A stretch of DNA of 23,347 bases from a virus. Shown piece after piece: positions 8,001 to 23,347 of the stretch. Both the position numbers and the translations under genes were made by a program. Within the stretch, counting starts at the first letter, position 1. Each line of letters begins with the position of its first letter. The notes under the pieces were generated by a model. That model saw only the letters and a list, made by a program, of their open reading frames with translations. It made no database searches and had not been told where the DNA came from. Where the stretch lies: the IMG/VR virus record IMGVR_UViG_3300006869_000112, positions 1 to 23,347 of that record; one strand, 5' to 3'.

Positions 8001-8590
8001 TTTACATCTTGAAGTCTTCGCTGACGCTCGATGTTTCTGTCAGTGATTTCAGCTTCAAAATCTTCTTTAGCTTTTATAGCCTCAGCAAGACGTTTTTGAG
8101 CCCTCTCTAGCGCTCTTGCGTTGTTTACACCAGATGCAGTTGCTTTATTTCCCGCAGAAATGGCTTTCCCGACTCCACCAAAAGCCAGAACAGCAGTGAG
8201 AGCACCCTGAGCTAGGGCCGCAAGGGCTCCACCCAAAGCAATAGCCGCTGGGGTCGCTCTACTGAGAATCGTAGAGAGAGTTACAAGACCAGCACCTAAA
8301 GAGCCGATTGCCCCAACAAGACCGGTAATGATTGGTCCGAGGAAGTAACCAACTTGAACAAGTCTTTGGAACTTTCTTCGAGCGGCCTCTGCTTCATCAG
8401 CAAACTTGCCTCCGAAGATTCTTCCCCTACCGCCACCGCCAGAGTTCAACCCCCGGTCGAAGGCGTCAGAGATTCTTGCTCCCTCACGCTCTCCGATTCG
8501 GTCAATACCAGAGAACGCACGCTCAATGTCCGGCTTTACACGGTTGGTGATGGCACGAACAATTACATGCGCTTCACCTACAACTGCCAC
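5021..8590 (-). CDS. Tape measure protein
   Basis: The protein has 1189 residues and is the second longest gene in the window. It sets tail length and is threaded through the tail tube. A GTG start at 8590 is chosen because AGGAGGTGA stands upstream at 8598-8606 and an in-frame TAG closes the frame just before it; the nearby ATG at 8596 is in another frame and opens only six codons. Features in order: glycine-rich segment (about 48-60), hydrophobic stretch (82-145), long charged coiled coil (about 155-400), amphipathic helices, a strong hydrophobic segment (about 835-855, NPWILLIVALIAIVTLVVMN), three 46-residue repeats (about 896-1033), and a C-terminus ending INVYPSEGMNERELAKKVST. By the rule of thumb of 0.15 nm per residue the tail would be near 180 nm. 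No peptidase or lysozyme motif was seen. Its place between the chaperone pair and Dit is diagnostic. Confidence 0.95.
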   Translation of the reverse strand: MAVVGEAHVIVRAITNRVKPDIERAFSGIDRIGEREGARISDAFDRGLNSGGGGRGRIFGGKFADEAEAARRKFQRLVQVGYFLGPIITGLVGAIGSLGAGLVTLSTILSRATPAAIALGGALAALAQGALTAVLAFGGVGKAISAGNKATASGVNNARALERAQKRLAEAIKAKEDFEAEITDRNIERQRRLQDVNDALADAQINLQRVGRNYLRAQKRSLDAQEAVTKAREDAKEAIQQLRFELEGGAISEKKARLEFEKARDSLQRVQDLPPNSRARQEAELAFAEAELNLRKAIDRNQDLKKEEAAATKAGVEGSKAVRDASYAAAEAKQAEEDALVDLSREQRDFEKLTIDTAKARKELSYGEFKKQIKEERQELKDAIKEARKDLEDLKKNAGGAASAYQKALQELSPEARKFVEFIVENRKEFQKLRDAAARGLFPGLEVAIQKLIDKLFPVLIPLLEGTGGALANVANKIADVVTEESNLEQLERVWKTGDKLIENFGGAIANLIDLFLTLLDAGRPVIEEFGQWIEDLTGGWAKDAEGNFSTIQTRMEEAATIVKRLAGIFGTLFDAFGSIGESVVNGGALDRLLTYFEEASSDFATLMENMNGDGSLGEYFLKATENATKVLDLLGNIIGEILKLGAGDGVGSFIDSLNEAVDIFGEIGAEIDGALPAFGEFIVEFAKVIKTFTESGSIQTFFEILTGGLEVVNKVFGNETVKKIFLFVAPIFAATRAFALFGKVGFFAFKVFAGGILFPLRAMEKLTTALLKVPGAGGRLVGKFKAFGSAFKGAAASILKPIAKVLGKLKGFFAKILTIVGKFLLTLGRLLMANPWILLIVALIAIVTLVVMNWDKIKEIVGNAMAWISEKVSAVWNAIVEFFKTVGGKIIGAIGDFATSVLEFINKYHPIMVIWRLISENWEAIKTWFVELPGKVLDFIKEFGGKVLEFINKYHPVMILWRLITENWDKIKGWFTSLPGRVKDAIVGLSTKVAEFIRKYHPILILWNKAKELWPTVYQFFKDKLDALIGFFRGLPQRFKNAASGLWDFLKDGFVGILNKMITAWNNFSLRLEVPSNAVTDFFRIGGKGFTINTPDIPLINLASGGVVYPRPGGTLARIAEAGRPERVEPLDENGLSKRDKALVMALAGGGGPGGTTINVYPSEGMNERELAKKVSTELASMMRRGAA
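5492..5905 (-). repeat. Three 46-residue repeats in tape measure protein
   Basis: The motif (F)I.KYHP(I/V)(M/L).(I/L)W recurs with its tyrosine at residues 909, 955 and 1001, an exact period of 46 residues (138 bases). Copies 1 and 2 are nearly alike (WRLI(S/T)ENW(E/D)(A/K)IK.WF..LPG(K/R)V); copy 3 is diverged (WNKAKELWPTVYQFFKDK). The DNA of copies 1 and 2 is visibly similar, for example gg(g)tg(a/g)ta(c/t)tta(t)t(t/a)aat(a/g)aa. This suggests stepwise tail lengthening by tandem duplication. Confidence 0.85.
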
Positions 8591-9443: not shown

Positions 9444-9830
9444 TTATTTTATCAATCTGAGGTTGTCACTAAGGTAGCGATTTGGCTTAGTTCCGGGGTG
9501 CCGGACTAGGTGTGTAATCACTAGTTGTCCCTTAGTTTGGAACCTCAGAACACCACCCGGGTTAGTCGGCCTAATAAGGTGAGGCCGAGTCCCCTCGTGG
9601 TGCATCCTTGCGTAGGGCAAGGAAGACCCGATTTTTACATACTGACCCCGGGGGTCACGGAAGTGACGCATGTGGATGGAGGCTCTCAAAGCCCCTGTCT
9701 GCACGCCAACTTGACGCTTTGCGGCTGCTTTAACAAGCAAACCTTTTCTCTTTAAAAACCGCCCGACTGTTCCACCGGGTTGACGAAGAAATCGGTCTAG
9801 AGCTGGTTCATAAAAAATTACGTTTCCCAT
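9444..9830 (-). CDS. HK97 gp10-like neck / tail-completion protein
   Basis: This is a 128-residue basic protein. Visible family features are an N-terminal helix (LDRFLRQPGGTVGRFLKRKG), the segment KAAAKRQVGVQTGALRASI, the YARMHHEGTRPHLIRP block near residues 73-88, and an end of the form V.HPGTKPNRYLSDNLRL. This is the pattern of the HK97 gp10-like family, whose members sit at the head-tail junction or finish the tail. The ATG lies in a TAATG junction with the upstream gene and no clear Shine-Dalgarno precedes it, so translation is probably coupled. Its place after the tail-terminator-like gene and before the chaperones is ordinary for connector genes. Confidence 0.8.
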   Translation of the reverse strand: MGNVIFYEPALDRFLRQPGGTVGRFLKRKGLLVKAAAKRQVGVQTGALRASIHMRHFRDPRGQYVKIGSSLPYARMHHEGTRPHLIRPTNPGGVLRFQTKGQLVITHLVRHPGTKPNRYLSDNLRLIK

Positions 9831-10339
9831 TACGGAACCGCCATTGTGATGGTCATTCGAGTGTTTTGGAATCCGCCTTCTGGGCCCTCAACATCAACCG
9901 TGGCAATAACTCCCAAACCAAATGCCCCATTACCGGCCCATGAATCAAACTGCTGAACGCTTTCCATCAAAATCCATGCGTCGTAAGCGGAGACTGTTGC
10001 GCCTTTTTCGATGTTTTCTGCGCTTGGGGGCTGACCGTTCTGTCCAACAATGGGGACGGCACGAGAAACCGTGATGTTGAGTGTTGCGCTACGGGGGTCG
10101 TGGCAACGGCGAGGCTCTGTGGCTTCATCGCCGGGAGCGCCAATGTACATCTGAATAAGAGAGACAACTAGCTGTTCGCAATCAACCGCAGGCGGGGCAA
10201 GGTTCCAGTACCGCTTTGAAGGAAGCGGCATGGAGTAGGAGTCGTAAGTGTTGACAACTCGGTCTAGAACATCCTGAAGAAACGTAGCGAGGTTCTTTGC
10301 CCCATCGTCTACGCCTGATACATCAGCGAACGTTGCCAT
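9830..10339 (-). CDS. Tail terminator-like protein
   Basis: This is a 169-residue protein with an ATG start and AGAGGA eleven bases upstream. It begins with a helical segment (GAKNLATFLQDVLDRVVNTY), followed by PLPSKRYWNL, CEQLVVSLIQMYIG, and two beta-rich stretches (SATLNITVSRAVPIVG and GVIATVDVEGPEG...TRMTITMAVP). This alpha-beta layout, plus its position next to the HK97 gp10-like gene, fits the tail terminator ring that caps the tube and joins it to the neck. No single diagnostic motif is known to me, so the call rests on layout and neighbours. The stop overlaps the next ATG (TAATG). Confidence 0.6.
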   Translation of the reverse strand: MATFADVSGVDDGAKNLATFLQDVLDRVVNTYDSYSMPLPSKRYWNLAPPAVDCEQLVVSLIQMYIGAPGDEATEPRRCHDPRSATLNITVSRAVPIVGQNGQPPSAENIEKGATVSAYDAWILMESVQQFDSWAGNGAFGLGVIATVDVEGPEGGFQNTRMTITMAVP

Positions 10340-10363: not shown

Positions 10364-11503
10364 TTACACAATTGCAATCGGTGTAACCCTGTCACCGAGT
10401 TGGTAAACCACGTTGCTGGTCAGCATGTGGATTACCTCGTTGACCGCAGGATTGCCAAGACTTGGACGAGTTGCATACAAGTCCAAGATTCCGGGGTCAC
10501 GGGGTCCAAGAACAGAAAGAAGGTCCGAATAACTTGCGCTTAGTCGAATAGTTTCTTCTGTTCTGTCTAGGTCAGCAGCTCCTTCAAGTGTCAAAGTTTT
10601 GGAGTTGTTGTAGCTGGAGATGACTGCGTAGACATCCCACGCAGAATCGTTGAGCAAGAAGTCTCCACCAAACTCATTGAGGTAGTAGACGTTGGTGCCG
10701 CCCTCGGTGTTGAAGTAGAGGTCGTAGGCACTGAGTTCGAAAACGGGGCTCTCACCCTGAATGCGACGAGCACGAGGCTGGTCGGGGCTAAAGACTCGGG
10801 AGCGAGCACGAGCCTTGTCTGGGTTGGCTGTCTTGAGGAAGAGGTCAACGGCGTACATTCCTGTACGCAACTCATCAACAAAGTCTTGGTTGTCGAGAAT
10901 GGTATATGTAACACCTTGGCGAACCACAGATGTCACACGCTGAGGCAGACCGCACTCTTCGTCACCTTCGTAAAGCTTGACTAGTTCGGTCGCTAGAAGC
11001 CTTGCAGCAGCCTTACCGGCTGTGGGTGGAGGTGTTCCATAGGTGTAGGTCACCTCTACGTTTGTCGCACTCCAGCTAGCGTTAGAAGTGCCGTAGACCG
11101 TTGAGTGGTCGGCAAGGTAGTAAGTATCGGGGTCGATGACGTTGCCGTCTTGGTCACGGAGAGCGTGAATCTTGACGACCTTACGACCCCGGAGACGAAC
11201 CCGAGTTAGAGCATTCGTTCCATCTCCAAGGAAATCTCTATTGGAGTAACGACCGAAGCCTCCGGAAGCAACGTTCTCAACCTGACCATCAATAAGTTGC
11301 GGCGTGTAGGTGAGGCGAGAAGACCCGGAGCGGAGGTAGGGGTCGTAGGCAGAGACGTAACGCTCCGTAACTCGGGTTGTCCCCGAAAACTTGCGGCCCG
11401 ACATGGCCCAGAGGAGGTAAGAAGCAGTCTTTACCGCCTCGTAAGCGTAATCAGAATCCGCATAGACACCTAAGTCATCAGTGTCTACCCACAGATTGCT
11501 CAT
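10364..11503 (-). CDS. Head-to-tail adaptor with C-terminal extension
   Basis: The protein has 379 residues. The first about 245 match the form of actinophage head-to-tail adaptors: the helical YEAVKTASYLLWAMSGRKFSG near residues 21-41, a beta section, VEVTYTYGTPPPTAGKAAAR (149-168), the helix LLATELVKLYEGDEECGLPQ, and RTGMYAVDLFLKTANPDKAR. Such adaptors bind under the portal ring and connect it to the tail. Residues from about 250 to 379 (VFELSAYDLYFNTEGG..., TLTLEGAADLDRTEETIRLS...) are beta-rich and beyond the usual family length. I do not recognise this extension; it could decorate the neck. An ATG at 11503 follows a purine-rich GAGAGGCGAGA stretch. A large inverted repeat lies directly upstream in the 87-bp gap. 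Confidence 0.75.
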   Translation of the reverse strand: MSNLWVDTDDLGVYADSDYAYEAVKTASYLLWAMSGRKFSGTTRVTERYVSAYDPYLRSGSSRLTYTPQLIDGQVENVASGGFGRYSNRDFLGDGTNALTRVRLRGRKVVKIHALRDQDGNVIDPDTYYLADHSTVYGTSNASWSATNVEVTYTYGTPPPTAGKAAARLLATELVKLYEGDEECGLPQRVTSVVRQGVTYTILDNQDFVDELRTGMYAVDLFLKTANPDKARARSRVFSPDQPRARRIQGESPVFELSAYDLYFNTEGGTNVYYLNEFGGDFLLNDSAWDVYAVISSYNNSKTLTLEGAADLDRTEETIRLSASYSDLLSVLGPRDPGILDLYATRPSLGNPAVNEVIHMLTSNVVYQLGDRVTPIAIV

Positions 11504-11523: not shown

Positions 11524-11592
11524 AGAAGTTGGGGCGGGCAGGGCCTGAGCGCTAAGCAACACCCATGGCACTCTGCCCGCCCCTTCTAACTT
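11524..11592 (-). promoter_or_regulatory. Long GC-rich inverted repeat between tail tube and adaptor genes
   Basis: The arms 11531-11541 (GGGGCGGGCAG) and 11573-11583 (CTGCCCGCCCC) are perfectly complementary over 11 bases with a 31-base loop. Flanking AGAA/TTCT and AAGTT/AACTT can extend the stem with a small bulge. On the minus strand it begins just after the tail tube stop and is not followed by a T-tract. A classical intrinsic terminator is therefore unlikely. It could protect the 3' end of the abundant capsid/tail-tube transcript, act as an RNase processing point, or lower read-through into the connector genes. Confidence 0.6.
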
Positions 11593-12640
11593 AGGAAGTG
11601 GGGTCCTCCGAAGAGGCGATGATGAAGTCAGTCGCCAAGTCGGGGTTGTAGTCATCCGCACCCGGAACGTTGTAGTTCTCTGTGGAGCCTTGGCTCTCGA
11701 AGTCAGAGACTGCGAGGTAGCCACGGTTACGAACAACGTCACCAGCTGGGCTGACAGGTGTCGAAGCAACATCAGCTGCGCCGGTCAGTGTGACACGGAA
11801 GCTGGTGGTGCTTGGCACCGCTGTGATTGTGTGGGTTCCGTTGAAGTCGCCGTCAACACCAGCGATGGTGACTGACTGTCCGACCTCAAACCCGTGGGCT
11901 GTGCCAGTGGTCACTGTGCCGACCTCCGAGGTGATGGACTTGTTGGTCACGGTGTTGCTAGCAACATCGAACCAGCGGTAGAAGCCCTTGAGGCCCTCAG
12001 GAGCCCATGTTGCACGGGCGTAGCTGTAGGGGCGCTCTGCACCAACGGGGTACTCCCAACGTCCGTCGAGGCCGCTCTGGAACTGAACGTTCCCGAGGCC
12101 GTAGCCTTCGAAGGTGTTGGCGAGGAGGCCGTTCTCAATCACACGGTCACCGCTCTGGCGGAGGCGTGCGTAGGGGAAGACCCAGTAGAAGTATGGGAGT
12201 GTGGTGTCCCGCTTGCCGTCCTTGACAGCAAAGGACCAAACCTCAATCGACACACCGTTACCGGAGGGGTCGTCACCAACGCCGGGGGAAGCCCAACCAA
12301 CGCTCTTGTTGTCTGGCGAAGCGAATGAACCGAAGTTCTTGCGAAGCAACAGACCACCTGACATAAGAGCTGTCAGTTCAGGGTCGGGCTCGCAAATCGC
12401 AATCTCCATTGTGATTCGCTTGAGGGTGTCGGGAGCCTTGTAGGAGACACAAATTGTGCCATCCGCAGACTTCTCAACGATTTCGTCACCCTCTTCGTAT
12501 TCGGGGGTAAATGAGGCTCGCAAAAATGCCGAGGTGGTGTAGCTGTCCCCTGCTCCGTTGAGGAGGTTACCAGCGGCGTCCAGTCGAGTGACTCGAATCG
12601 CCACACCTTGGACGCTAGCCGCATAGTCTTGTGTAGCCAT
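11591..12640 (-). CDS. Major tail tube protein with one inserted FCCH-like module
   Basis: The protein has 349 residues, with an ATG start and AAGGAG nine bases upstream. Residues 10-100 show a pattern I recognise from actinophage major tail proteins: VAIRVTRLDAAGNLLNGAGD, SFTPEYEEGDEIVEKSADG, ICVSYK, LKRITMEIAICEPDPELTAL. A second beta-rich part follows (WVFPYARLRQ, NTFEGYGLGN). At about residues 241-287 sits a single copy of the module found in the Dit-like and hub proteins (TVTTGTAHGFEVGQSVTIAG...FNGTHTITAVPSTTSF). Many copies of this protein stack as rings to make the tail tube, so the module would be displayed along the whole tail. The gene follows the capsid genes and precedes the adaptor, an unusual place for a tail tube gene. 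Confidence 0.8.
   Translation of the reverse strand: MATQDYAASVQGVAIRVTRLDAAGNLLNGAGDSYTTSAFLRASFTPEYEEGDEIVEKSADGTICVSYKAPDTLKRITMEIAICEPDPELTALMSGGLLLRKNFGSFASPDNKSVGWASPGVGDDPSGNGVSIEVWSFAVKDGKRDTTLPYFYWVFPYARLRQSGDRVIENGLLANTFEGYGLGNVQFQSGLDGRWEYPVGAERPYSYARATWAPEGLKGFYRWFDVASNTVTNKSITSEVGTVTTGTAHGFEVGQSVTIAGVDGDFNGTHTITAVPSTTSFRVTLTGAADVASTPVSPAGDVVRNRGYLAVSDFESQGSTENYNVPGADDYNPDLATDFIIASSEDPTS
11780..11920 (-). repeat. Single FCCH-like module in the tail tube protein
   Basis: Residues about 241-287 match the consensus of the modules in the two tail-tip proteins: T(V)TT..AHGF.VGQSVTIAGVDGDFNGTHTI and AVPST.SF. It lies near the C-terminal third, before a return to tail-tube sequence (NRGYLAVSDFESQGS). 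It reads as an insertion into or appendage on the tube domain, comparable in position to Ig-like decorations of other phage tail tubes. Confidence 0.75.
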
Positions 12641-12680: not shown

Positions 12681-13598
12681 TTATGATGTCGGGAGTGTCA
12701 CTCGCATTGCGTAATGCATTGAGGGGTCGGAGTACACAGCGGCAGGCCGGTACGCCTTAATCCTCATGTTGTTTATTGTAACATCTGCGCCCTGAGCCAA
12801 GTCTTCGTTTACGACCTCAATCTTGCCGAGGTGAACGTCAACCTTGCTTGTGGCGTAAATCCACTTGTTGGTAGCAGACGCAGCAGCGTTCTGGTCACCA
12901 ACAGGTCCTGTACCGGTGTACCCGGAACCAATAACAACTTCGGTGCCCAAGCGGGTCATTGCCCGACCGGGCTTTCCGTCTTCGCCCTTTTTGTAGACGA
13001 GACGGGAACCCAAAATCGAGGCAACGTCACGAGTCATGTGGATGACTGCGTTCTCTCCTGTTGGAGAATCTGAAATCGCCTCTTCTAGATACATCAGAGC
13101 AATCTGCGGTGCAAATGCTCCTGATTGAGGAATTGTTGAAGCACCTGTCTTGGTGAGATACATGTTGTTCTCACCAGCGTCATAGTCAATCGGCGGACCA
13201 GCGCTCACAACACCCCGGGCAGCAGAACCTGTCCAGAACTCGTACTCGACGGCCTTTTGGGTTACTGCTTCAAGCTCTTTCTTGACTCGCTCAAACCGGT
13301 CCTGCCCCGGAAGGCTGAAGGTCGAAGCAAAGTCCTCAACGTCAATGTAAAACGGCACGTACCGCAGGTAGCGGTCGTCTGCCTGATTGTCGGTGAGTTC
13401 ACCGTCAGTGACTGTTGCGTCATTAACGGTGAGCAGCCGGACGTATGACGGCATTGAGTCGAACTCTTGGTCAAGACCTCGAACCCAACGCTCGTCATAG
13501 TCACGGGCTGTGTGCTCAGTCACCCGGGCGACGCTCAGTAGACCGCAGGGAGCTGGAACTAACTCATTCGCAGGAAAGACTCCTTGGAATTTTGCCAT
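12681..13598 (-). CDS. Second capsid-like protein (possible pentamer or minor capsid subunit)
   Basis: The protein has 305 residues, with an ATG start and AAAGGAGAG close upstream, and lies directly after the major capsid gene. Residues about 85-130 (YLRYVPFYIDVEDFASTFSL, then a long helix RVKKELEAVTQKAVEYEFWTG) read like the E-loop end and spine helix of an HK97-fold coat protein. Later segments (GAFAPQIALMYLEEAISDSP, VIHMTRDVASILGSRLVYKK, WIYATSKVDVHLGKIEVVNE) are compatible with the A and P domains of that fold. It is only distantly like its neighbour, if related at all. Some actinophages are annotated with separate hexamer and pentamer capsid proteins, and the adjacent pair fits that arrangement. 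A decoration or head-completion protein is the alternative. Confidence 0.55.
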   Translation of the reverse strand: MAKFQGVFPANELVPAPCGLLSVARVTEHTARDYDERWVRGLDQEFDSMPSYVRLLTVNDATVTDGELTDNQADDRYLRYVPFYIDVEDFASTFSLPGQDRFERVKKELEAVTQKAVEYEFWTGSAARGVVSAGPPIDYDAGENNMYLTKTGASTIPQSGAFAPQIALMYLEEAISDSPTGENAVIHMTRDVASILGSRLVYKKGEDGKPGRAMTRLGTEVVIGSGYTGTGPVGDQNAAASATNKWIYATSKVDVHLGKIEVVNEDLAQGADVTINNMRIKAYRPAAVYSDPSMHYAMRVTLPTS

Positions 13599-13660: not shown

Positions 13661-15853
13661 TTAGTACTCGATAGCCGCTGCGGTTGCGCCACCTGTGGTG
13701 TCACGCAGGGCAGCAGCCACACCGTTCACGCTGATGGTGCTGGTGATTGCGAGGCCCTCAATGCCGACCTTGGCAACACCCTCGAAGGTCTCAACGAACA
13801 TCTTGTAGTCGTTGGTACCAACAAGGCTGGAGTCACGGATGATTCCGAGGTCCAGTGTGCCGCCGTCGAGGAACAGGAAGGTACCCTCAGCGAAGAGGTA
13901 CCACACGAACGAGTCAGCAAACTCGTTGAGGGCACCAGCGCTCTGGGCAGCTGCCACGTTCTGGTCGAGTGAGTAGCTGACGACAACTCCACGAGCTGCC
14001 ATGTAGCCCTCAATCTCGGCGTAGGCGTTGAGTGTGCTGTCACCGGGCATCGAGAGAGCGAGGTCCGCAGCCATGGCATCCTTGACCCACGAGGGGAGGA
14101 TGGCACGAAGCGGAGCGTCGGCCTCAAGACGGTGACGGGAGCGGTACGCAGAAGCGGCACGACCCATCTGGACGAGCATGTCACGACCGAAGCCAATGAG
14201 GCTTGTGGTGGTAACGGCTGTCGAGCCAGCGGCAATCTTGCCAAGCAGGTACTGCTCTGCCTCACGAGCGTGCTGAATCAGACCGAGCTCGTTGTGGCGA
14301 GCAATCAGTTCTGGGTAAGCACGGGTAGCGAGGTTACCGAACTGCAGCTGGAGAGTAACAGCGTCGGTAGCGACGGTGTTCTCAGCAGCGGACGCAACGG
14401 TGAGGCTGTTCTTCGCAGCAGGGCTGGGAGTCTCAGCAGCATCGTTAGCGGCAGTCCAAACACCAACAGCATCCGGCATGTCCGAAAGCTGTGGGGGTGT
14501 TACGAAGCGGATTCCGCCACGGTCAGCTTGGAAACGAGGCAGAGCGTCCCGCACGGGGCGGTTCGTTGTGCCGAATCCGAAGATGTCGTAACGGGCTTCG
14601 AATGGAGCAACGTGCCCACCAGCAGCCGTAATGGCTTCTGGGGAAACGACGTTCTGAATCTTCGCCCAGTTGGACTCAGCGTCAGCGTCGAGGGTACGGT
14701 CCTCCGGGAAGGAAGTGGTGAGCGAAGCAACGATGTGCTGCTCCCCATCTCCACCATTCACCCGACGAAGCGAGTGAATGCGCTTAGCCATTGCCTCAGC
14801 AACGGCGCTCATGTCATCAAGCGGGCTACCAGCGGTGTACCCCGGAATGTCTGCGCCCGCCGTGATTGTTACGGGAGCGGCTGACTCCGTGGTCTCCAGA
14901 CGGTGCTCCGCAGGAACCTCGATGTCGAGGTTCTCGTTATCTGCAGCGGCGGTCACAGATGCCTCCATTGTTTCTTGAGCCTCTGGCTCAGTTGTTGGTT
15001 CTTGAATTGCAGCTTCTGCGTCGTCAGAAACCTCAGCGGCGGCGTCCTCTTCGGAGTCCTCAGCCTCAGCGGCCTCGTCCTCGTCCGAAGAAGCCTCAGT
15101 TGTGGCCTCTTCCTCTACGGAAGCTTCTGCAGTAGCGTCGTCCTCGACAGCGGCCTCGGCCTCAACGGCGTCGTCCTCTGCTTCGTCTTCTGCTGATGCA
15201 GTCAGTGTTTCCTCGGCGGGTGCTTCGGAAGCTGTTTCCTCTACAGCGGCTTCGGCCTCAACAGGGGCCTCCACAACTGCGTCGGTTGTTGTCTCAGTTT
15301 CAGTCGAGAGCTCTGAACTCGTCTCCTCAACGGCTGACGCTTCGGACATCTTCTTCTTCTCCTCTTCGTCCTCGTCCTTTTCATCGGACTTGGCTTCTGG
15401 TTCGGCAGGAGCGTCAGAATCAGCCGGAGCCTCTTCCTTCATCTCCTCATCGGCAGGGGCTGGAGCGTCTGCCTCGGGCTTCTTCTCTTCCTCATCCTTC
15501 ATGTCGCCCATGGCGGCTTCGGATTCGTCGGAGGAGTCTTCCTCTGGCTTCTTCTCTTCCTCTGCTTCATCCTCAGAAGAAGCAGGTTCCTTTTCGCCAT
15601 CTTGCCCACGGACACGAGACGCTGCCTCAGCGGCCCGCTGGGCGAGCTCCTCGACTGCGGCTTCACGCTGCTTGAGCTCCGAGCGAACGGAATCAAGCAT
15701 GTCGGCAAGACTGGTCATAGCGTCAACTGTTTCAGGAGTGGGGTCTTCGTTCTCAACCGTCTCAAATGCGCTGATGATTTCACCTTGAAGCTCGGCAACC
15801 TGTTCGTCGCTGAGTTCCGAAAGAGAATTCATCATCTCTTTAATTCGGTCCAC
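13661..15853 (-). CDS. Major capsid protein with fused acidic scaffold domain
   Basis: The protein has 730 residues. A GTG start at 15853 is set by AAGGAGGGG at 15857-15865. Layout: a helical, coiled-coil-prone N-terminus (1-82, MDRIKEMMNSLSELSDEQV...), an extremely acidic low-complexity region (about 85-310, mainly E, A, D, S, T and few aromatic residues), and a capsid domain (about 330-730). The capsid domain contains PFEARYDIFGFG, LPRFQADRGGIRFVTPPQLS, and SFVWYLFAEGTFLFLDGG followed by DLGIIRDSSLVGTNDYKMFV, which I recognise from actinophage major capsid proteins of the HK97 fold. The N-terminal part should act as a built-in scaffold (delta domain) inside the prohead and be removed by the protease encoded just upstream. 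The cut site cannot be read from the sequence; the switch to ordinary composition near residues 310-345 is the likely area. Confidence 0.85.
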   Translation of the reverse strand: MDRIKEMMNSLSELSDEQVAELQGEIISAFETVENEDPTPETVDAMTSLADMLDSVRSELKQREAAVEELAQRAAEAASRVRGQDGEKEPASSEDEAEEEKKPEEDSSDESEAAMGDMKDEEEKKPEADAPAPADEEMKEEAPADSDAPAEPEAKSDEKDEDEEEKKKMSEASAVEETSSELSTETETTTDAVVEAPVEAEAAVEETASEAPAEETLTASAEDEAEDDAVEAEAAVEDDATAEASVEEEATTEASSDEDEAAEAEDSEEDAAAEVSDDAEAAIQEPTTEPEAQETMEASVTAAADNENLDIEVPAEHRLETTESAAPVTITAGADIPGYTAGSPLDDMSAVAEAMAKRIHSLRRVNGGDGEQHIVASLTTSFPEDRTLDADAESNWAKIQNVVSPEAITAAGGHVAPFEARYDIFGFGTTNRPVRDALPRFQADRGGIRFVTPPQLSDMPDAVGVWTAANDAAETPSPAAKNSLTVASAAENTVATDAVTLQLQFGNLATRAYPELIARHNELGLIQHAREAEQYLLGKIAAGSTAVTTTSLIGFGRDMLVQMGRAASAYRSRHRLEADAPLRAILPSWVKDAMAADLALSMPGDSTLNAYAEIEGYMAARGVVVSYSLDQNVAAAQSAGALNEFADSFVWYLFAEGTFLFLDGGTLDLGIIRDSSLVGTNDYKMFVETFEGVAKVGIEGLAITSTISVNGVAAALRDTTGGATAAAIEY
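14924..15601 (-). other. Acidic low-complexity scaffold segment of capsid protein
   Basis: About 225 residues are dominated by E, D, A, S and T, with only a few lysine pockets (EEEKKPE, EEEKKKMSE). There are no extended hydrophobic stretches. The DNA on the plus strand shows many cctc, cttc and gcctc repeats, which create a long but meaningless open frame on that strand. The segment is expected to be intrinsically disordered and to fill the inside of the prohead before cleavage. Confidence 0.8.
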
Positions 15854-16021: not shown

Positions 16022-19000
16022 TTAGGTGAGGAGCCTGAGAAGCTTTGCCATCTCAGAAGAAATCTCGCTCTGGTTGAAGTAATCCCCACCCGACATAAAG
16101 GTCTTTAGTTTCTCGGTAGCAATATCGGCATCTTCTTCACCGATTTTGTTTTCTACCTTTTTCACCATGTCTTCCATGAGCTTCTTTAGGGCAGGAGGAA
16201 CATCTGAGAAACGAATCTTTTCCGCCTGCTTGCCAAAGGCAAATGGCAAATTGGCAATAACCTCACCTAGTTGACGGGAGCTCTCTCGAACGTTCTCTAA
16301 AGCTTCAGGATTTAGCGCTTTTGCGTCCAATCGGTCGATAATCCCAATCAAATCCTTGGCTGCTTCGGCTGATTTCTCATAATCCCCGGCGCTATCAAGG
16401 TTTTCTGCCTCTTCGACCTTCTCAACCACACGGTCAAGACCGGAGGTTCCTAGGTCATTCTTTAGGCGGGCTAGAACTTTCCTGTACTTTCCAGATGCAT
16501 CTCGGGGTTGAGTCTGGGGGGTGTACTTACCCCCTTCATCTTTTTTTGCCCGATTCATCCTCTCAACCTTGAGAGCTTCAATCTCTTCTTCGGTGAGGTC
16601 GTCAACATCTTCTGCAAATGTCGCAGAGGCGGTCAAACCACGCTCTTCAAAAAGTGCTCCTAAATTTGCAGATTCAGAGGCCAATTCAGCTCTCAAGCGC
16701 AAGTCGCTTGCAACATCGTCAATTGTCGATGCTGACTTCCAGTTCTCCGGAATCAGCTCTTCCTTGCCGAGGGCACGAGCACGCTTACGAATGTGAGTGC
16801 GAACCTTGGCTCGGTCTTCTGGGTTAGAACGACCGTAAGCCGAGATTGCGTTCTTTAGGTCTGACTCGTTGCGGATGGGGTATGAACCATCGGGAAGGGC
16901 TTGACCCTTCTTTGCCAGACCCTTGCGCTCGTCCTCGGTGAACTGCTTGAACTCAGCAACAGCGGCGGCGGCAAGAGTGCGCTCTTGAATTGTCGCCTCT
17001 GCACCGTCTGAAATGAACTCACCAAAGTCTTCGGCAGAAGCGTTCTTCCACTTCGACGGGATGAGGTCAATGCGACGAAGGGAACGAGCCCGACGCATGA
17101 TGTGCTTGCGAACCTTGCCCTTGCTTCCGGGCTTGGCACGACCGTAGGCACGGACTGCATTGCGTAGGTCAGTAGCGTTGCGAATCGGGAAAGACCCGTC
17201 ATCAAGAGCTTTGCCTTCCTTGGCAAGACGAATACGAACTCGGCGGGAAATGACAGCGAGCTCATTCTCTGGGTCATCATCCAGCATTTGAATCATGTAT
17301 TCCCAGCCGTTTTCATCGCCCTTGTCTTCGTCCTTGGCCTTCTTGACCTTGGCGGCAAGTTCTGCGTGCTTGCTTGCTAGGAGTGGCTCTTCGATTCGAG
17401 CGATGCGCTCGGTCAAATCTGAAAGCGGGTCATGCTTTAGTTGCGCCAAAACGCTTGCACCAGCAGCAACTAGGGCCATGACCTGTCCCGAAGCAACCCT
17501 TGCACGGGTAATCGGGAATCCCGGAACATTGACCTGACACACAGCAACTAGCTCAAGGCTTCCCTTGATTGGTCGCCAGTCTCCAGAAGGAGCCGATGCA
17601 CGGGCAGCACGGATTTGCTCCGGGGTGGTGCCGGGACGCAGAGCACCAGCTACCCAGATTCCGTAAGCGTCCTCGCCAGCGTGGACATCGGCAAAAGCGG
17701 AAGCTGTGTCGTCATAGTGCTTAGCGGCTGCAGCAGCGTCAGCCTCTAGACCGGCGTGCCCACCAGCAAGAGTGAGCTGACCGACCGGAACAGTGTCACC
17801 CTCAGCGGTGTGGATTGTCCCGGTGTGGAAGTAGGCGTACTTGCTACGGCTACGAGGAGGCTTTGTTCCAAAGCTCATTCCGATGTGGTCAACATTCCAA
17901 GCGGCGATATGCCCGAATACACGACCCTCATCAGTAATTGTTAGGGGTGTTGCCTTCTTCAGTTCGGGGTTCTGGAACCACTCTTTTGTCGGCTCAACCG
18001 GGATTGCGTCAGCAACCATTCCGCAAGCAACTAGGGCGGAGGCATCCAGAGGACTAACCCCCTCAACGTAAACTCCGTCTGGTACCACTTCGCCCTCCTG
18101 AGCTTCTGTATCTTCTTCAATCAATTGAATAAAGCATTCTTGGAACGCAGGCTTAGGAACGATTGTCACCGCCATAACCCGTGCGCTCGTGATATTTATT
18201 CTACCTGAACCCATTTTCTTCGAGTCGTCTTCGCCGTCCTCGGTTAGCTCAGGAATCTCTGGCTCTTCTGCCTCAAACTTGTCCATATCAGCGGACACGC
18301 CACGGATGAAACCGTGACGAACAAGGCGCTCTGCTTCTTTGCCGAATTCTCCGCTATCAAACATTCCGTAGGCATTTCCGATGCCTTGCTCGGTTTTCTC
18401 CATGTGGGTGATTTGTCCGACTACAACAGAGCCATCATGGCCCTGACCTGTCTTGATTTGCCACAGCAGAGGAAGAGGTAGGTCTCGGATTTGTATTGAG
18501 TCCTTCTCGAAAATACGACCGTCACCGGACTCAAGCTCTTCTGGGATTACCAGTGGAATAACAAACTTTGCACCGTGGTCGGTGGGCTTTGCTGCTTCCC
18601 GACCGGCAAGGCGTGAGCGAGCGGACTCGGCACGAGCTCGAAGCGTCAACTCACCAATAACTTGCTGTTCTGTCTTAAGAGTCTCGATATCCGCAGAACC
18701 ACGGATGCCCTTCTTCTTTTTCTTGCCAACGTTGTACTTGGACCCGGGCCATACGCCAGTCATTTCTTTGTGGCGTAGGGCGCAATAACCCTTGGCACGG
18801 GGGCCCATGTACTTGCGTAGGTAGCGGTTGCATCGGGTCCAGTCGCCGGGTGTGTTCCAGCGAATCTTGAGCCCACCCTTGCCGATAGTCCAGTAACGGC
18901 GCAGTTTTTCAGCATTCCCACGGTTGCGGTCAAGACCACCAGCAGCCTGAATGGCAGCAATGATGGCGTTGTTTGTTAGAGCAATATGGCTCGGTACCAG

Positions 19001-21067
19001 AATGCCTGACGCAGCTACGGAAGTGCTTCCATCAACCTGCTCTGTTACTGCAGCAAGGTCTTCTTGATTGAGAAGAACAACCGGAGGAGGCGTTGGGCTC
19101 TGCAGGTCACGAGCAATCTGGTCGTTGCGCTCCCACTTCTTGTTGCGACGAATAAATGTCGCAGGGGTACGAGTCTTCTTGCTAGCTGGAATCATGCAGA
19201 CAAGTTCCATAACAGCCTGAGGGTCATCAGGAGAGACAATTGCCATGTAGAGAGGAGCAACATCGGAAGTCTCTACTGTTAGAGAGGTGTCATCTTCTGC
19301 TGCAGCAGTGACTGCTCCTGATGCTGTGAGTCTTGGTCTGTACCAACCAAGTTTTCCACCGCTTCCTTCGGTTAGTGCCCGACCCCCCTCGTACCACTCA
19401 CGAATAGCAGGCGATGTCTCGTAAAGATTGGGGGCAGTAGCCGGGTTCCACTCTGCACGGTTTGTACCGTCTACGTTAGTTGTGCTTCCTGTTGCTTCGT
19501 AGTAGCGACCAAGAGCGGTGCTGATGTCGGGCGGGCTCTTGTATTGAATGGGGGGAACCGGGTCTCCGGAGTAGTCAGGAGACATGCGTTGGTCTGCAAC
19601 CCAAGCCCCCCAGTCGTTGACCATGGTGTTGACCATCGGCGCTGTTAGCGCAGGCAGACGACCCGGGAGTTGAGCGGTCGGCTGGTCAATCGGAACACGA
19701 GGCTCACCAAGGATTCCGGTGAAGTCAAGGTTCGATGCCGGAAAACTGTTGGTGATTGGCTCAAACGTGCTGACTTCTTGAACGGTGCCACCGGGAACGA
19801 CAACAGTTTCGCCGTTATCCAGCTCAACACTTACCTCTTGGCTGTCTGGGTTTAGCGCAGTGATGTTGCCCTGATAATTAGCATCGCCACCAATGATGAC
19901 TCGTTGACCCATTTCAGCGAAGCGACCAAGCTTGTCACGCACCTGTTGAGACGCAGCCTCGGAACGCTCTTCTGGCGTGTACTCTGCATCACCCTCTTCG
20001 GCAAACTCCGATTTATTTACGGAAATGACGGAAGCCATGAGACCGCCAAGGTCGTCTTCATAGTCGGGCAGCTCATCTGATGAGTCATCGCTCAGTTGGT
20101 CAAGAAACTCCCAATCAAGTTCAGGGATTGCGCTCTCGAACATGGTTGTCTCTTCAAACTCAATCTTCTTGAGATGAACAACTTCCATGGGGTCGTTGTC
20201 GAGCATGGCTGAAATCTTGAGAGCAGACTCACGGTCCACGGACAGGTGCATCTTGTGGCAGCGGTCGTATGGGTCATCAAGAGTCTTGTCGTAAGTCTCA
20301 AAATCGTGGTTGATGTTCCCGAGGTCATCCCACGAGCCGTCATCCCACACAAAGACAGCGCCATCTTCATCTACCTTGTAGAGACGGTCGATGCCTGAGC
20401 CGTCAAGACGTACACGGATGAAGAAGTCTGGCTCCATCATCGAAGGACGGAACGAGTCAACCTCTACACGCTGTGCGTGCGAGTAATCGTCCATGCCATA
20501 AGACGCAATGATTGCTGCGCTCTTCTTCTTTTTGTTCTCACGCTCAACGATTGCGGAGGCCCAACGCTGGGCAGCATCGCCGCCCCAAAGAGCCCAAGCG
20601 ATACGACCGTTAGATGGGTAGTTGTCTTGTCCGGGCTTGTAGCCCTTGCCCTTTTTATCTACCTCGTGACGAGGAAAGTACTTCGCAATGTGGCGGACCT
20701 TCTTGATTCCAATTTGTCCACCCTTAGCAAGAGTGCGAGCGGTGTTCATGCCAACAGGAGTGCCACCACGCTTCTCCTCCTTGCGCCACGCAAGACCACG
20801 CTTGGCTTCAGCAATAACGGCATCGGGAATCGTGTACATCCGGTCGTTAGAAGCAAAGACCTTAATGTCGAGGTCTGTGACGGCAGCGTTTGCTAGCTCG
20901 GAAGCAGCCCTCGTTGGCTCGCTCCCGTGCTTGGTCCACGAGGCAGAAGCGACCAAGGAGTCAGCCTTATCTACGAGCACGACTTCGTTAGTCGTCTCGT
21001 CAACTACTGCACCAAGCTCTTCATTGACGAAGAGCGTCTGATTTTTGTTTCTGCCGACGTATTCCAC
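16022..21067 (-). CDS. Multidomain capsid maturation protease polyprotein
   Basis: The protein has 1681 residues, with a GTG start two bases after the preceding stop and GAGGAAG upstream. Blocks I recognise from actinophage protease proteins, in order: GGTPVGMNTARTLAKGG..YFPRHE...IAWALWGGDAAQRWA (about 83-172); RDKLGRFAEMGQRV with an SH3-like follow-on (377-430); RRYWTIGKGGLKIRWNTPGD..YCALRHKEMTG (724-771); the prohead protease domain (about 830-980) with likely catalytic His877 (GHDGS) and Ser925 (GVSAD); and a domain at about 1030-1205 with PLTITDEGRVFGHIAAWN, HYDDTASAFADVHAGEDAYG, GIWVAGALRPGT, SGDWRPI and VNVPGFPITR. Two DUF6582-like repeats (1281-1344, 1384-1447) and a helical C-terminus follow. 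Ordinary prohead proteases have about 200 residues. The polyprotein probably cleaves itself and the acidic capsid domain inside the prohead. Confidence 0.85.
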   Translation of the reverse strand: MEYVGRNKNQTLFVNEELGAVVDETTNEVVLVDKADSLVASASWTKHGSEPTRAASELANAAVTDLDIKVFASNDRMYTIPDAVIAEAKRGLAWRKEEKRGGTPVGMNTARTLAKGGQIGIKKVRHIAKYFPRHEVDKKGKGYKPGQDNYPSNGRIAWALWGGDAAQRWASAIVERENKKKKSAAIIASYGMDDYSHAQRVEVDSFRPSMMEPDFFIRVRLDGSGIDRLYKVDEDGAVFVWDDGSWDDLGNINHDFETYDKTLDDPYDRCHKMHLSVDRESALKISAMLDNDPMEVVHLKKIEFEETTMFESAIPELDWEFLDQLSDDSSDELPDYEDDLGGLMASVISVNKSEFAEEGDAEYTPEERSEAASQQVRDKLGRFAEMGQRVIIGGDANYQGNITALNPDSQEVSVELDNGETVVVPGGTVQEVSTFEPITNSFPASNLDFTGILGEPRVPIDQPTAQLPGRLPALTAPMVNTMVNDWGAWVADQRMSPDYSGDPVPPIQYKSPPDISTALGRYYEATGSTTNVDGTNRAEWNPATAPNLYETSPAIREWYEGGRALTEGSGGKLGWYRPRLTASGAVTAAAEDDTSLTVETSDVAPLYMAIVSPDDPQAVMELVCMIPASKKTRTPATFIRRNKKWERNDQIARDLQSPTPPPVVLLNQEDLAAVTEQVDGSTSVAASGILVPSHIALTNNAIIAAIQAAGGLDRNRGNAEKLRRYWTIGKGGLKIRWNTPGDWTRCNRYLRKYMGPRAKGYCALRHKEMTGVWPGSKYNVGKKKKKGIRGSADIETLKTEQQVIGELTLRARAESARSRLAGREAAKPTDHGAKFVIPLVIPEELESGDGRIFEKDSIQIRDLPLPLLWQIKTGQGHDGSVVVGQITHMEKTEQGIGNAYGMFDSGEFGKEAERLVRHGFIRGVSADMDKFEAEEPEIPELTEDGEDDSKKMGSGRINITSARVMAVTIVPKPAFQECFIQLIEEDTEAQEGEVVPDGVYVEGVSPLDASALVACGMVADAIPVEPTKEWFQNPELKKATPLTITDEGRVFGHIAAWNVDHIGMSFGTKPPRSRSKYAYFHTGTIHTAEGDTVPVGQLTLAGGHAGLEADAAAAAKHYDDTASAFADVHAGEDAYGIWVAGALRPGTTPEQIRAARASAPSGDWRPIKGSLELVAVCQVNVPGFPITRARVASGQVMALVAAGASVLAQLKHDPLSDLTERIARIEEPLLASKHAELAAKVKKAKDEDKGDENGWEYMIQMLDDDPENELAVISRRVRIRLAKEGKALDDGSFPIRNATDLRNAVRAYGRAKPGSKGKVRKHIMRRARSLRRIDLIPSKWKNASAEDFGEFISDGAEATIQERTLAAAAVAEFKQFTEDERKGLAKKGQALPDGSYPIRNESDLKNAISAYGRSNPEDRAKVRTHIRKRARALGKEELIPENWKSASTIDDVASDLRLRAELASESANLGALFEERGLTASATFAEDVDDLTEEEIEALKVERMNRAKKDEGGKYTPQTQPRDASGKYRKVLARLKNDLGTSGLDRVVEKVEEAENLDSAGDYEKSAEAAKDLIGIIDRLDAKALNPEALENVRESSRQLGEVIANLPFAFGKQAEKIRFSDVPPALKKLMEDMVKKVENKIGEEDADIATEKLKTFMSGGDYFNQSEISSEMAKLLRLLT
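16727..17227 (-). repeat. Two tandem DUF6582-like repeats in protease polyprotein
   Basis: Residues 1281-1344 and 1384-1447 are paralogous: LAK(E/K)G.AL.DGS(F/Y)PIRN followed by (A/E)(T/S)DL(R/K)NA(V/I)(R/S)AYGR..P and K(V)R.HI..RAR.L...LIP..WK.AS. They are joined by about 39 residues (EDFGEFISDGAEATIQERTL...). The pattern is that of the actinobacterial and actinophage family I remember as DUF6582, usually single and near a C-terminus. Its function is unknown; the basic helix suggests nucleic acid or capsid contact. Confidence 0.75.
18128..18580 (-). other. Prohead protease domain within the polyprotein
   Basis: This covers about residues 830-980. It begins KFVIPLVIPEELESGDGRIF, has the histidine block GQGHDGSVVVGQITHMEK (His877), and the serine block VRHGFIRGVSADMDKF (Ser925), and ends with RVMAVTIVPKPAFQECFI. 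The spacing of His and Ser (48 residues) and the strand that ends in a VP.PAF-like motif are as in HK97-type prohead proteases. A third catalytic residue cannot be fixed by eye. Confidence 0.75.
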
Positions 21068-21685: not shown

Positions 21686-23347
21686 CTAGTCCGCTTTTCC
21701 TATCAAATCTTCAACCTTGTTACCGTGAAGCTCTGTAATACCTGCCTGAGTCAGCTTCTCCAAAAGAATCTTTCTGGTTTCGGAGTCCATATCAACAGTG
21801 GCTAGGTCAGCCCAAGACAGATTCTTTTTGTAAAGAACTTCGTGAAGATTCTGGTAGAACATCTTGATGTAGTCCTTGTCTTCTGAAAGTTCTCCATACT
21901 TGTCGCTAGCATTGCTATAGAAATCAAGTCGGCGCATAAGTTTCTCAGCGGGGAAGTAGAACTTTAAGAACGCACTACTTGTACTGCTTCCCTTTTTGAC
22001 ATTCGATGTCTTGCTCGTAAAGATGTAATCAGCACCGGCTCCAGACAAGTCTGCTGTACTAGACATTCCGGATGTGTTAATCCCCTCTGTCCAACGAGCA
22101 GTGGTGGAGTACAAGCCTCCGCCTTCGGTGGTGAGAAGCTTGAAAATCATGTCAGCACGTTTTTGAGCTGATGAGCTCAAGTTGCCTGAGTACCAGTTGT
22201 GGACAAAGGCTTTAGTGCCAGTGTCAGATGCAAGTTTGTTCGCCACTGACTCCGGGATGAGGTACATAAACTTTCCTCGTGAGAACTCGTCAACTACAAG
22301 TTCCATGTCGTCAGCAGTGAATCCCCACTTGTTTTCAATTTCTTCTAGATACTTCTTACGAAGTTCTCCGGCATAGTTCTTTGTACCATCAGTGTTGCGA
22401 CCAAAGATGGAAAGCATCTTGTTTTCCTTGAGACCCCGAATATCTGCTTCGGTTGCTGGTCGAACACTCTTAATTACTTCTAGAGACTCAAGAGCTTCAG
22501 CAATATCCTCAGCCGAAGAGTCAAGGGGCATGTCAATGGTCAGTCTGTTGTGCAGAGAAACCGGTCCATTATTTGAGCCGCCCATCTTGAAGAAGTTAGG
22601 GCTCTTCTCGGACTTGTTTCCTCGGAGGAAACTGAAAACACCCTTACCAGCTTCACCGCTGTAGGTAGTGCCCTTGCCGTAGTAATCAATATTTGAGGAA
22701 GACCACATTCCAACTTTTTCGACAGTTCCGTCTTCCTGAGTCTCGTACTGAGGCATCTCAAGGGTGGGGGTTCCGGTGCCCTTGTACTTCTTAGCCAAGA
22801 TATTTCCAGCCCAGTCGGTGAGCTTGAAAGAAACCTGCAGTTTCTTCTCGCCATCAACCGTAACTTGGGTCACACGCATTTCTAGGTCTTCAATTGCACC
22901 ATTGTCAGTGAGAACAGACGCACCGTTTGCAGCGACATTCGGAGTGTCAGATGTTGCTTTCTTAAGTGCAGCAGTCAAGCTAGGAACGTTTTCGTAGGGG
23001 CTTAGGTCCCAGTTGGGGGGACCCTCTGGCTCCTCGACCTCAAACCCGGGTCCGTTTACATTTTCCTTAGCTTTAAGGTCAGCAACTTCTTGTTCCAGCT
23101 GCTTCTGCGCTTTGTCTGCTTCGATTTGCTTTAGAGCATCGTCAACAGGAGTTGCGTCGTAGTCAATTCCCAGTTGCTCCTTTGAAGTCTTTCTACTTAC
23201 AGACTTCTCTCGGCTGTATACCGACTTAGCTCCGAGCTTCTTGCTTTGACCAGCAAGAGGCCCATCAAAGAAGGTCACATCAACTTCATCAGAACTTGGG
23301 TATGTCTTCGTGACAATCCCGTGGCTGTTGAGTTCGGGGTCGGCTCC
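21686..23347 (-). CDS. Conserved phage head-region protein, C-terminal part (runs off right edge)
   Basis: The frame is open from the right edge to a TAG at 21686 (553 residues seen). A GTG at 23278 has open frame for 23 codons before it (GADPELNSHGIVTKTYPSSD), so the true start is outside the window. Numbering from that GTG: charged coiled-coil (about 45-72), GASVLTDNGAIEDLEMRVTQ followed by a beta segment ending FKLTDWAGN (118-160), VIKSVRPATEADIRGLKENK (268-287), WGFTADDMELVVDEF...KFMYLIPESVANKLA (318-350), and GGGLYSTTARWTEGINTSGM plus SGAGADYIFTSK (387-423). I remember similar blocks in uncharacterised proteins of other actinophages, usually near portal or MuF genes, but cannot name the family. 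A minor head or internal virion protein is a reasonable inference from position; enzymatic activity cannot be excluded. Confidence 0.7.
   Translation of the reverse strand, partial: GADPELNSHGIVTKTYPSSDEVDVTFFDGPLAGQSKKLGAKSVYSREKSVSRKTSKEQLGIDYDATPVDDALKQIEADKAQKQLEQEVADLKAKENVNGPGFEVEEPEGPPNWDLSPYENVPSLTAALKKATSDTPNVAANGASVLTDNGAIEDLEMRVTQVTVDGEKKLQVSFKLTDWAGNILAKKYKGTGTPTLEMPQYETQEDGTVEKVGMWSSSNIDYYGKGTTYSGEAGKGVFSFLRGNKSEKSPNFFKMGGSNNGPVSLHNRLTIDMPLDSSAEDIAEALESLEVIKSVRPATEADIRGLKENKMLSIFGRNTDGTKNYAGELRKKYLEEIENKWGFTADDMELVVDEFSRGKFMYLIPESVANKLASDTGTKAFVHNWYSGNLSSSAQKRADMIFKLLTTEGGGLYSTTARWTEGINTSGMSSTADLSGAGADYIFTSKTSNVKKGSSTSSAFLKFYFPAEKLMRRLDFYSNASDKYGELSEDKDYIKMFYQNLHEVLYKKNLSWADLATVDMDSETRKILLEKLTQAGITELHGNKVEDLIGKAD

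Follow-up and report, generated by a model that had tools for sequence, protein, structure and literature searches.

The stretch of DNA analysed here (the window: IMG/VR virus record IMGVR_UViG_3300006869_000112, a separate record of 23,347 bases that carries head and tail genes) raises the question of what is made from one very long gene encoded upstream of its major capsid protein gene. The open reading frame (ORF) occupies positions 16022-21067 of the minus strand, coordinates given correctly in an earlier note that named no strand, and encodes a chain of 1681 amino acids (aa) without an internal stop; it starts with GTG, 3 bases past the stop of the upstream gene, and a purine-rich stretch precedes the start. 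Chance origin of the ORF is excluded, since 954 phage records match the chain by tblastn and 8 of them cover at least 80% of it. Conservation, homology and structure divide the chain into about eleven modules, in the order N1, N2, N3, N4, the linker-rich M5, M6, M7, PR1, PR2, R (present twice in the window) and Ct. The earlier note rightly described a multi-module chain with a central protease domain, which is the capsid-protease domain PR1, but its count of at least six modules was too low, and its one protease domain has become two conserved core domains, PR1 and PR2. The chain is probably the precursor of a capsid-maturation protease that cuts itself into modules and trims the scaffold of the capsid protein at the same motif.

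PR1 and its two candidate catalytic residues are located as follows:

18113..18568, minus strand: PR1 (aa 834-985), prohead/herpes protease fold
18437..18439, minus strand: His877, candidate catalytic histidine, conserved in 64 of 64 sequences of alignment A5
18293..18295, minus strand: Ser925, candidate nucleophile, conserved in 64 of 64 sequences of alignment A5

Alignment A5 consists of the window and 63 of 118 non-redundant segments, with longer segments, those after the hundredth and a copy of the window left out; D927, after Ser925, is likewise present in 64 of 64. As modelled by AlphaFold2 (aa 826-1212, with PR1 and PR2 mostly at a predicted local distance difference test score, pLDDT, above 90), PR1 has the fold of T4 gp21 and of the herpesvirus capsid proteases. 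The PR1 model matches T4 gp21 with a structural Z-score of 10.2 (root mean square deviation, rmsd, 3.3 over 125 residues), the protease of varicella-zoster virus (VZV) with Z 9.8 (rmsd 2.7, 112 residues) and that of pseudorabies virus (PrV) with Z 9.3 (rmsd 3.0, 117 residues). The proteases of human cytomegalovirus (HCMV), Kaposi's sarcoma-associated herpesvirus (KSHV) and herpes simplex virus (HSV) 2 give Z 8.0-8.4, and the best chains of seven herpesvirus proteases (these five, Epstein-Barr virus, EBV, and HSV-1) range from 7.1 to 9.8, where by the tool's own note a Z below 8 may reflect just a common arrangement; unrelated MCE domains reach at most 6.0. A BFVD search with PR1 returns many prohead proteases at probability 1.00, and Foldseek's own list has weak E-values, with unrelated LetB repeats first by E (probability 0.28) and the EBV protease at probability 0.99. 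In an hhalign alignment (E 1.5e-4, probability 51%), His877 and Ser925 line up with the histidine and serine of an S78-like domain of Roseobacter phage CRP-811. PHROGs places aa 674-1245 of the chain in a head-and-packaging family, NCBIfam returns no name for the window chain, and the homologue in phage DSL-LC01 passes the Pfam S78 cut-off at 23 bits. The protease gene lies upstream of the major capsid protein gene both in the window and in related phage loci.

A scan of IMG/VR gave at least 577 confirmed relatives, of which the best 80 loci were used. These contain 72 complete ORFs with both N2 and PR2 (42 once near-duplicates are removed), so the earlier suggestion that such blocks are rarely found all in one chain is wrong for this group. 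A set of 44 proteins, comprising 41 of those 42 and the window, Big4 and Cece chains, was searched for linear motifs. When 6561 residue-class tetramers were ranked over nine linkers, with expectations from 20 within-segment shuffles and tetramers seen fewer than 60 times skipped, [LIVM][TVI]A[SAG] had the strongest excess (344 against 34.7 expected). The strict motif, [LIV]-[VTI]-A-[SAG], is above shuffles in 10 of 12 linker stretches, occurring in 24, 29, 25, 16, 33, 19, 18, 44, 27 and 26 of the 44 proteins (0.4 to 5.3 expected); the two stretches without it are one inside M5 and a loop in PR1. In 8 of 10 domain segments it is at or below shuffles, with occurrences in 6 proteins in N2, 8 in N3, 3 in N4, 1 in M6 and 2 in PR2, none in M7, in either part of PR1 or in R, and none among 42 in Ct. 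A preceding test, in which conservation alone set the linkers and the motif was looser, also gave an excess in linkers (210 against 35.4). Strict motifs of the window chain lie at aa 38, 186, 580, 586, 702, 1199 and 1478, and the candidate cleavage motifs are these:

20501..20512, minus strand: IIAS (aa 186-189), in a disordered linker
19301..19330, minus strand: LTAS (aa 580) and VTAA (aa 586)
18953..18964, minus strand: IIAA (aa 702-705)
17462..17473, minus strand: LVAA (aa 1199-1202), in a stretch with the motif in 44 of 44 proteins, window included
17456..17509, minus strand: double motif directly after PR2 (aa 1187-1204), RVAS then LVAA, RVAS departing from the strict motif at its first residue in the window
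16625..16636, minus strand: LTAS (aa 1478-1481)

In the modelled N-terminal half, the motifs at 186, 586 and 702 are in stretches with pLDDT below 50, and that at 580 is at the edge of one. The stretch after PR2, where several families have two motif-like copies, has a pLDDT of about 42, yet aa 1181-1200 are the most conserved 20-residue block of the chain (0.98); disorder together with near-invariance is as expected of a linear recognition site.

The same motif recurs in the major capsid protein, the presumed substrate, at conserved positions:

13661-15853, minus strand: major capsid protein (PHROGs), with an acidic N-terminal part of about aa 1-411
14945..14956, minus strand: VTAA (aa 300-303), in 38 of 38 homologues
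14855..14866, minus strand: ITAG (aa 330-333), in 38 of 38
14723..14734, minus strand: IVAS (aa 374-377), in 38 of 38
14621..14632, minus strand: junction motif ITAA(GG) (aa 408-411), immediately ahead of the conserved core, in 38 of 38

One of the 38 homologues is a copy of the window, and a fifth site is present in 25 of them. Of the motifs counted, 147 precede the junction, 38 fall on it and 23 follow it. The junction motif is found in Rhinoforte, SilentRX, Bakery, Paschalis, Forza, Mimi and Cece, and also in Salete, TurkishDelight, Rofo and DonSanchon; a slightly looser pattern finds it in 49 of 51 loci with a capsid gene, the misses being L352 (LTAAAGWC) and L391 (no recognisable junction). 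The first 300 residues of the capsid protein have a net charge of -89, and the N-terminal part is judged from its sequence to be a removable scaffold that ends where a core of HK97 type would begin. Sequence searches with the window capsid, a Rosebush-type capsid and a 7-row core profile gave no solved relative that fixes the mature N-terminus: the Rosebush-type query matched just a small C-terminal domain, and the window capsid only weak unrelated chains. Self-cleavage, which the earlier note had raised, gains indirect sequence evidence from this motif shared by linkers and capsid protein.

A scan of 15 window genes counts 7 strict motifs in the polyprotein, 5 in the capsid protein and 1 each in the tail protein and the fragment at the window end. 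Polyprotein and capsid ORFs together contain 357 against 83.8 expected (62 ORFs, 71,033 aa), whereas pooled control ORFs contain 86 against 75.2 by block shuffles (140 ORFs, 93,467 aa), which is close to chance. By family, the counts are 0 against 11.0 for the head-tail adaptor, 4 against 15.0 for the gene at 12681-13598 and 9 against 8.0 for that at 9830-10339; the tape-measure control is one short sequence.

Several observations weigh against the proposal of a self-cutting maturation protease. The motif had been noticed in the chain before it was tested, a concern answered in part by the class ranking and the capsid sites; the 44 proteins are related, so that motif counts are not independent; the motif does not rank first among exact tetramers; and each protein has a strict motif in just 3-8 of the nine linkers. 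N3 (8 against 1.6 expected) and N2 (6 against 3.7) are above shuffles, LVAS at aa 38 lies within a confidently folded stretch, and in the conservation-based test "domain" stretches were enriched too (164 against 59.1), 134 of these 164 motifs coming from three conserved sites, near aa 1000-1020 and 1180-1220, that separate or follow the core domains. Two control families show an excess: that of the gene at 9444-9830 (11 against 2.7, the window member having none) and that of the major tail protein (47 against 15.5), most members of which have one conserved IIAS about 10 residues before the C-terminus (aa 340 in the window), where a protease of the head interior should not meet it. As to the enzyme, the sole Pfam match of the window chain is S78 at 13.3 bits, under the gathering cut-off of 21 bits, and two of three S78 proteins tried gave no significant hhalign alignment to PR1. 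PR1 was found in 6 of 8 complete genomes, being missing from Forza and Bakery. A scan for PR2 gave 76 new loci, 52 of them at least 15 kb long. Of these 52, 41 have PR1 in the same ORF as PR2 and 1 has it elsewhere; in the other 10 PR1 was not found, and a permissive PR1 search of them gave nothing better than E 3.2. As the capsid motif is present where PR1 is undetected, in these 10 loci and in Forza and Bakery, PR1 is not the sole protease for the motif everywhere.

The strongest rival is that PR2, not PR1, recognises the motif, with PR1 accessory or earlier-acting and losable, because PR2 is about as widespread as the capsid protein and PR1 is not. Self-cleavage is common to both accounts and only the enzyme differs; PR2 in this role is conceivable but rather unlikely. 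PR2 and its residues are located as follows:

17504..18007, minus strand: PR2 (aa 1021-1188), second core domain and most conserved part of the chain
17756..17758, minus strand: His1104 of PR2, in 250 of 250 distinct ORFs
17585..17587, minus strand: Ser1161 of PR2, in 250 of 250 distinct ORFs, two of them by uncertain alignment

PR2 is present in 831 phage records (found with two different queries) and the Bakery capsid core in 845, these being counts compared and not a record-by-record comparison. The two counts are equal in Mycobacterium (469), Gordonia (198) and Microbacterium (129) phages and unequal in those of Arthrobacter (18 with PR2, 15 with the capsid core) and Streptomyces (17, in the capsid list only); in two Streptomyces records that were checked, a diverged PR2 was detected by profile. 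In contrast to PR1, PR2 is present in 8 of 8 complete genomes. In the 250 distinct ORFs that all have His1104 and Ser1161, PR1 has both its residues in 222, is absent from 22, has its histidine changed in 5 and is gapped in 1; by PR1 one-sequence tblastn, at least 143 phage records match. H1053, H1104, H1117, D1119, S1161 and D1163 of PR2 are each present in 64 of 64 sequences of alignment A5, and the predicted order of its elements (strand, strand, helix, strand with the serine, strand) is that of PR1. Against PR2 as the enzyme stand the lack of any significant hhalign match of PR2 to PR1 or S78 and a structural match list filled by PR1 and assigning no fold to PR2. In addition, the two Streptomyces phages, in which the Ser1161 column is less certain and rests on a P-S-x-x-x-R alignment, replace two of the three conserved PR2 histidines while PR1 keeps both its residues. 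An origin of PR1 and PR2 by tandem duplication was considered and is unsupported by hhalign with either shallow or deep profiles; the order of strands alone agrees with it.

It is improbable that the chain stays intact as a long minor head protein or internal scaffold, with the motif serving for docking to the capsid interior or for packing. The motif lies in linkers of low conservation, whereas most domains lack it or are depleted in it. It recurs four or five times in the N-terminal part of the capsid protein, the last time directly before the conserved core, where a maturation cut is expected. Moreover, covalent linkage of Ct is dispensable, since Ct is a separate gene, the next one downstream, in 14 of the best 80 loci (L015, L030-L038, L062, L068, L071 and L073, several of them near-copies). 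Cleavage by a host protease, for which Prp acting on the capsid and scaffold proteins of phage 80alpha is a precedent (PMC5744158, as far as the available excerpt goes) and with which agree the Forza and Bakery genomes without an S78 or PR1 match and the lack of any protease family in ten of their head proteins scanned with Pfam, is very improbable, because the chain has a protease-fold domain of its own and Prp cuts another motif, between F and A near N-termini, according to the same excerpt. Both of these are less likely than PR1 or PR2 as the enzyme.

As a precursor of the capsid-maturation protease, the chain would be built in full into the prohead, possibly by way of its basic modules, which could pair with DNA or with the strongly acidic N-terminal domain of the capsid protein. 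Crowding inside the shell might then activate PR1 through His877 and Ser925, and PR1 would cut [LIV]-[VTI]-A|[SAG] in the linkers, freeing the modules; four or five cuts at this motif in the capsid scaffold domain would let the fragments leave and DNA enter. PR2 would be a partner, perhaps a second protease or the substrate-binding half. Computation gives the modules, the PR1 fold, the conserved residues and the distribution of the motif; the cleavage, the exact bond, the timing and the fate of the modules are what we infer for this pathway. Putative pieces of the chain could possibly stay in the virion or be ejected with DNA, as the earlier note proposed.

The arrangement of the chain is conserved. 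The records that match at least 80% of it are DSL-LC01 and seven records from six Microbacterium phages; each of these seven matches within one annotated gene, as checked in Cece and Big4. Throughout the best 80 loci, 12 window segments compared by blastp occur in near-identical order, and complete chains are of about 1400-1970 aa; R is single or double, an extra M7 is sometimes present, and about 8 loci are cut at one end. A single-sequence scan with the Paschalis protein retrieved only 4 loci. In DSL-LC01 (L002, 8986-13349), the first two genes annotated "capsid maturation protease" are one homologous chain split by a frame change in M6. To take the three genes of DSL-LC01 for natural pieces of the chain is correct only in part: the first break is within M6, with the homology going on in another frame, and looks from the sequence like a frame change in the assembled genome, and the break before Ct falls in a linker and recurs in other loci. 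A contig of 160.7 kb (IMGVR_UViG_3300047564_003843) has two full polyprotein loci, L031 and L037 (1398 and 1401 aa), which suggests either a joined contig or a duplication.

The modules that flank the core domains are these:

20528..20872, minus strand: module N2 (aa 66-180), charge +12, conservation 0.79-0.90
20117..20449, minus strand: module N3 (aa 207-317), acidic, mixed strands and helices
19763..19981, minus strand: module N4 (aa 363-435), Tudor/KOW-like SH3 barrel as modelled
19031..19261, minus strand: module M6 (aa 603-679)
18716..18934, minus strand: module M7, phrog_6439 (aa 712-784), strongly basic
17033..17221, minus strand: module R, copy 1 (aa 1283-1345), basic
16718..16933, minus strand: module R, copy 2 (aa 1379-1450)
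16025..16525, minus strand: module Ct (aa 1515-1681)

The earlier note took each non-protease block to be of unknown function, but N2, N4, M7 and R offer clues. The barrel predicted for N4 (Foldseek probability 1.00 at E 0.03, best Z 8.4 over 54 residues) is a common small fold and proves no function. N2, M7 and R have net charges of +12, +19 and +12 in the window, with means of +11.0, +14.0 and +7.9 in the 44 proteins. N2 and R are also found within chains annotated as prohead or capsid-maturation proteases in other phages, N2 occurring in the capsid-protein chain of Roseobacter phage CRP-811 and in the prohead protease of Pontimonas phage phiPsal1. M7 stands alone in other actinophages, as a gene of 61 aa in GAL1 and one of 80 aa in DuncansLeg, both outside the head genes. 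The HK97 protease uses a non-catalytic part to enter the prohead, and a similar targeting role, exerted through DNA or the acidic domain of the capsid protein, may fall to N2, M7 or R. In other phages, chains with PR2 have a MuF domain (Salete) and sub-threshold matches to 2H phosphoesterases and winged helix-turn-helix (wHTH)-like domains, indicating that partner modules vary by lineage while the core stays. One such PR2 chain, gp16 of Gordonia phage Rofo (L419, 4905-7520), has a sub-threshold 2H phosphoesterase match and is annotated "RNA ligase", a label that reflects the 2H domain and masks the presence of PR2, a head domain.

A common ancestor is assumed for prohead proteases and herpesvirus assemblin. 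Known prohead proteases are of about 20-25 kDa, with at most one targeting tail, and the T4 cut site is L/I-x-E. With HK97 gp4 and T4 gp21 (S78 and relatives), the chain shares the fold of PR1, a conserved histidine and serine, a gene upstream of the capsid gene with a long N-terminal part, and presumed self-processing; it differs in its size of about 180 kDa, in some ten extra modules and in the second core domain PR2. With the herpesvirus assemblin precursor (pUL26/UL80 type), it shares the joining of a protease and other parts in one chain, a related fold and, presumably, defined cuts. A release site in PrV pUL26 parts protease from scaffold (PMC4498786, available excerpt), and HCMV assay substrates have bulky aliphatic residues at P3 and P4, alanine before the cut and serine after it (PMC12632753, available excerpt), a pattern close, as far as that excerpt describes it, to [LIV]-x-A|S of the motif here. 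A candidate motif matching the aliphatic-X-Ala|Ser sites of assemblin is enriched at the expected places in the sequences. Unlike in the assemblin precursor, the presumed scaffold is fused to the capsid protein and not to the protease, many modules lie on both sides, and P2 is V, T or I instead of polar. Assemblin has a Ser-His-His triad, of which the serine and one histidine have candidate counterparts in PR1 (64 of 64 each).

Polyvalent proteins are long phage chains that combine several domains, including peptidase, 2H phosphoesterase and MuF, and are proposed to be packaged, autoprocessed and injected (PMC5512222, Iyer et al. 2017, in the available part). Like them, the chains of this group combine several distinct domains, and relatives have MuF and sub-threshold 2H and wHTH-like matches. 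The peptidases of polyvalent proteins are, in the same part of that paper, metallopeptidases in injected effectors, whereas the peptidase here is presumably the capsid-maturation enzyme itself, and the window chain has no recognised effector domain. In Salmonella phage SPN3US, one prohead protease, gp245, processes many head proteins, whose propeptides have several copies of a cut motif (PMC10052503, available excerpt); the several motif copies are alike here, but in that excerpt the motif is A-X-E and the substrates are separate proteins. Among the open-licence papers that the searches listed, no mass spectrometry of cleavage in this phage group and no paper on the polyprotein or its motif was found. 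The available part of the Corndog paper reports the capsid protease in virions and, from the resemblance to HK97, predicts removal of an N-terminal domain from the capsid subunit; in the available parts of the actinophage papers PMC7150772, PMC10635136, PMC4351075 and PMC13033339 (one of them the Corndog paper), there is nothing else on capsid cleavage.

Other genes of the window include the following:

10364-11503: head-tail adaptor
11591-12640: major tail protein
5021-8590: tape measure

The gene at 12681-13598 (phrog_779) follows the capsid gene; the equivalent place in related phages of Rosebush and Pegunavirus type is occupied by an annotated capsid pentamer protein, to which blastp found no significant similarity. 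Positions 21686-23347 encode the C-terminal 553 aa of a larger gene cut off by the window end; this piece has no Pfam match, and a Forza gene in the same region has an ADP-ribosyltransferase domain.

The arrangement of this polyprotein is common, not rare; what is new is the candidate cleavage code common to the polyprotein and the capsid protein, together with the widespread second core domain. A bolder proposal, put forward here as speculative, is that actinophages with this capsid type mature their heads by a herpes-like Ala/Ser cut code common to the capsid scaffold and a cargo-carrying protease polyprotein, PR2 being a second, unrecognised Ser-His capsid protease able to replace PR1. The phage cut sites A-X-E (SPN3US) and L/I-x-E (T4) do not look herpes-like; a cut motif of aliphatic-X-Ala-Ser type, shared by many actinophages, would bring the functional parallel closer. 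The motif predicts N-termini in about 830 public phage records with PR2. The agreement in record numbers between PR2 and the capsid protein suggests that mycobacteriophages in wide use have a head-assembly factor that has been overlooked.

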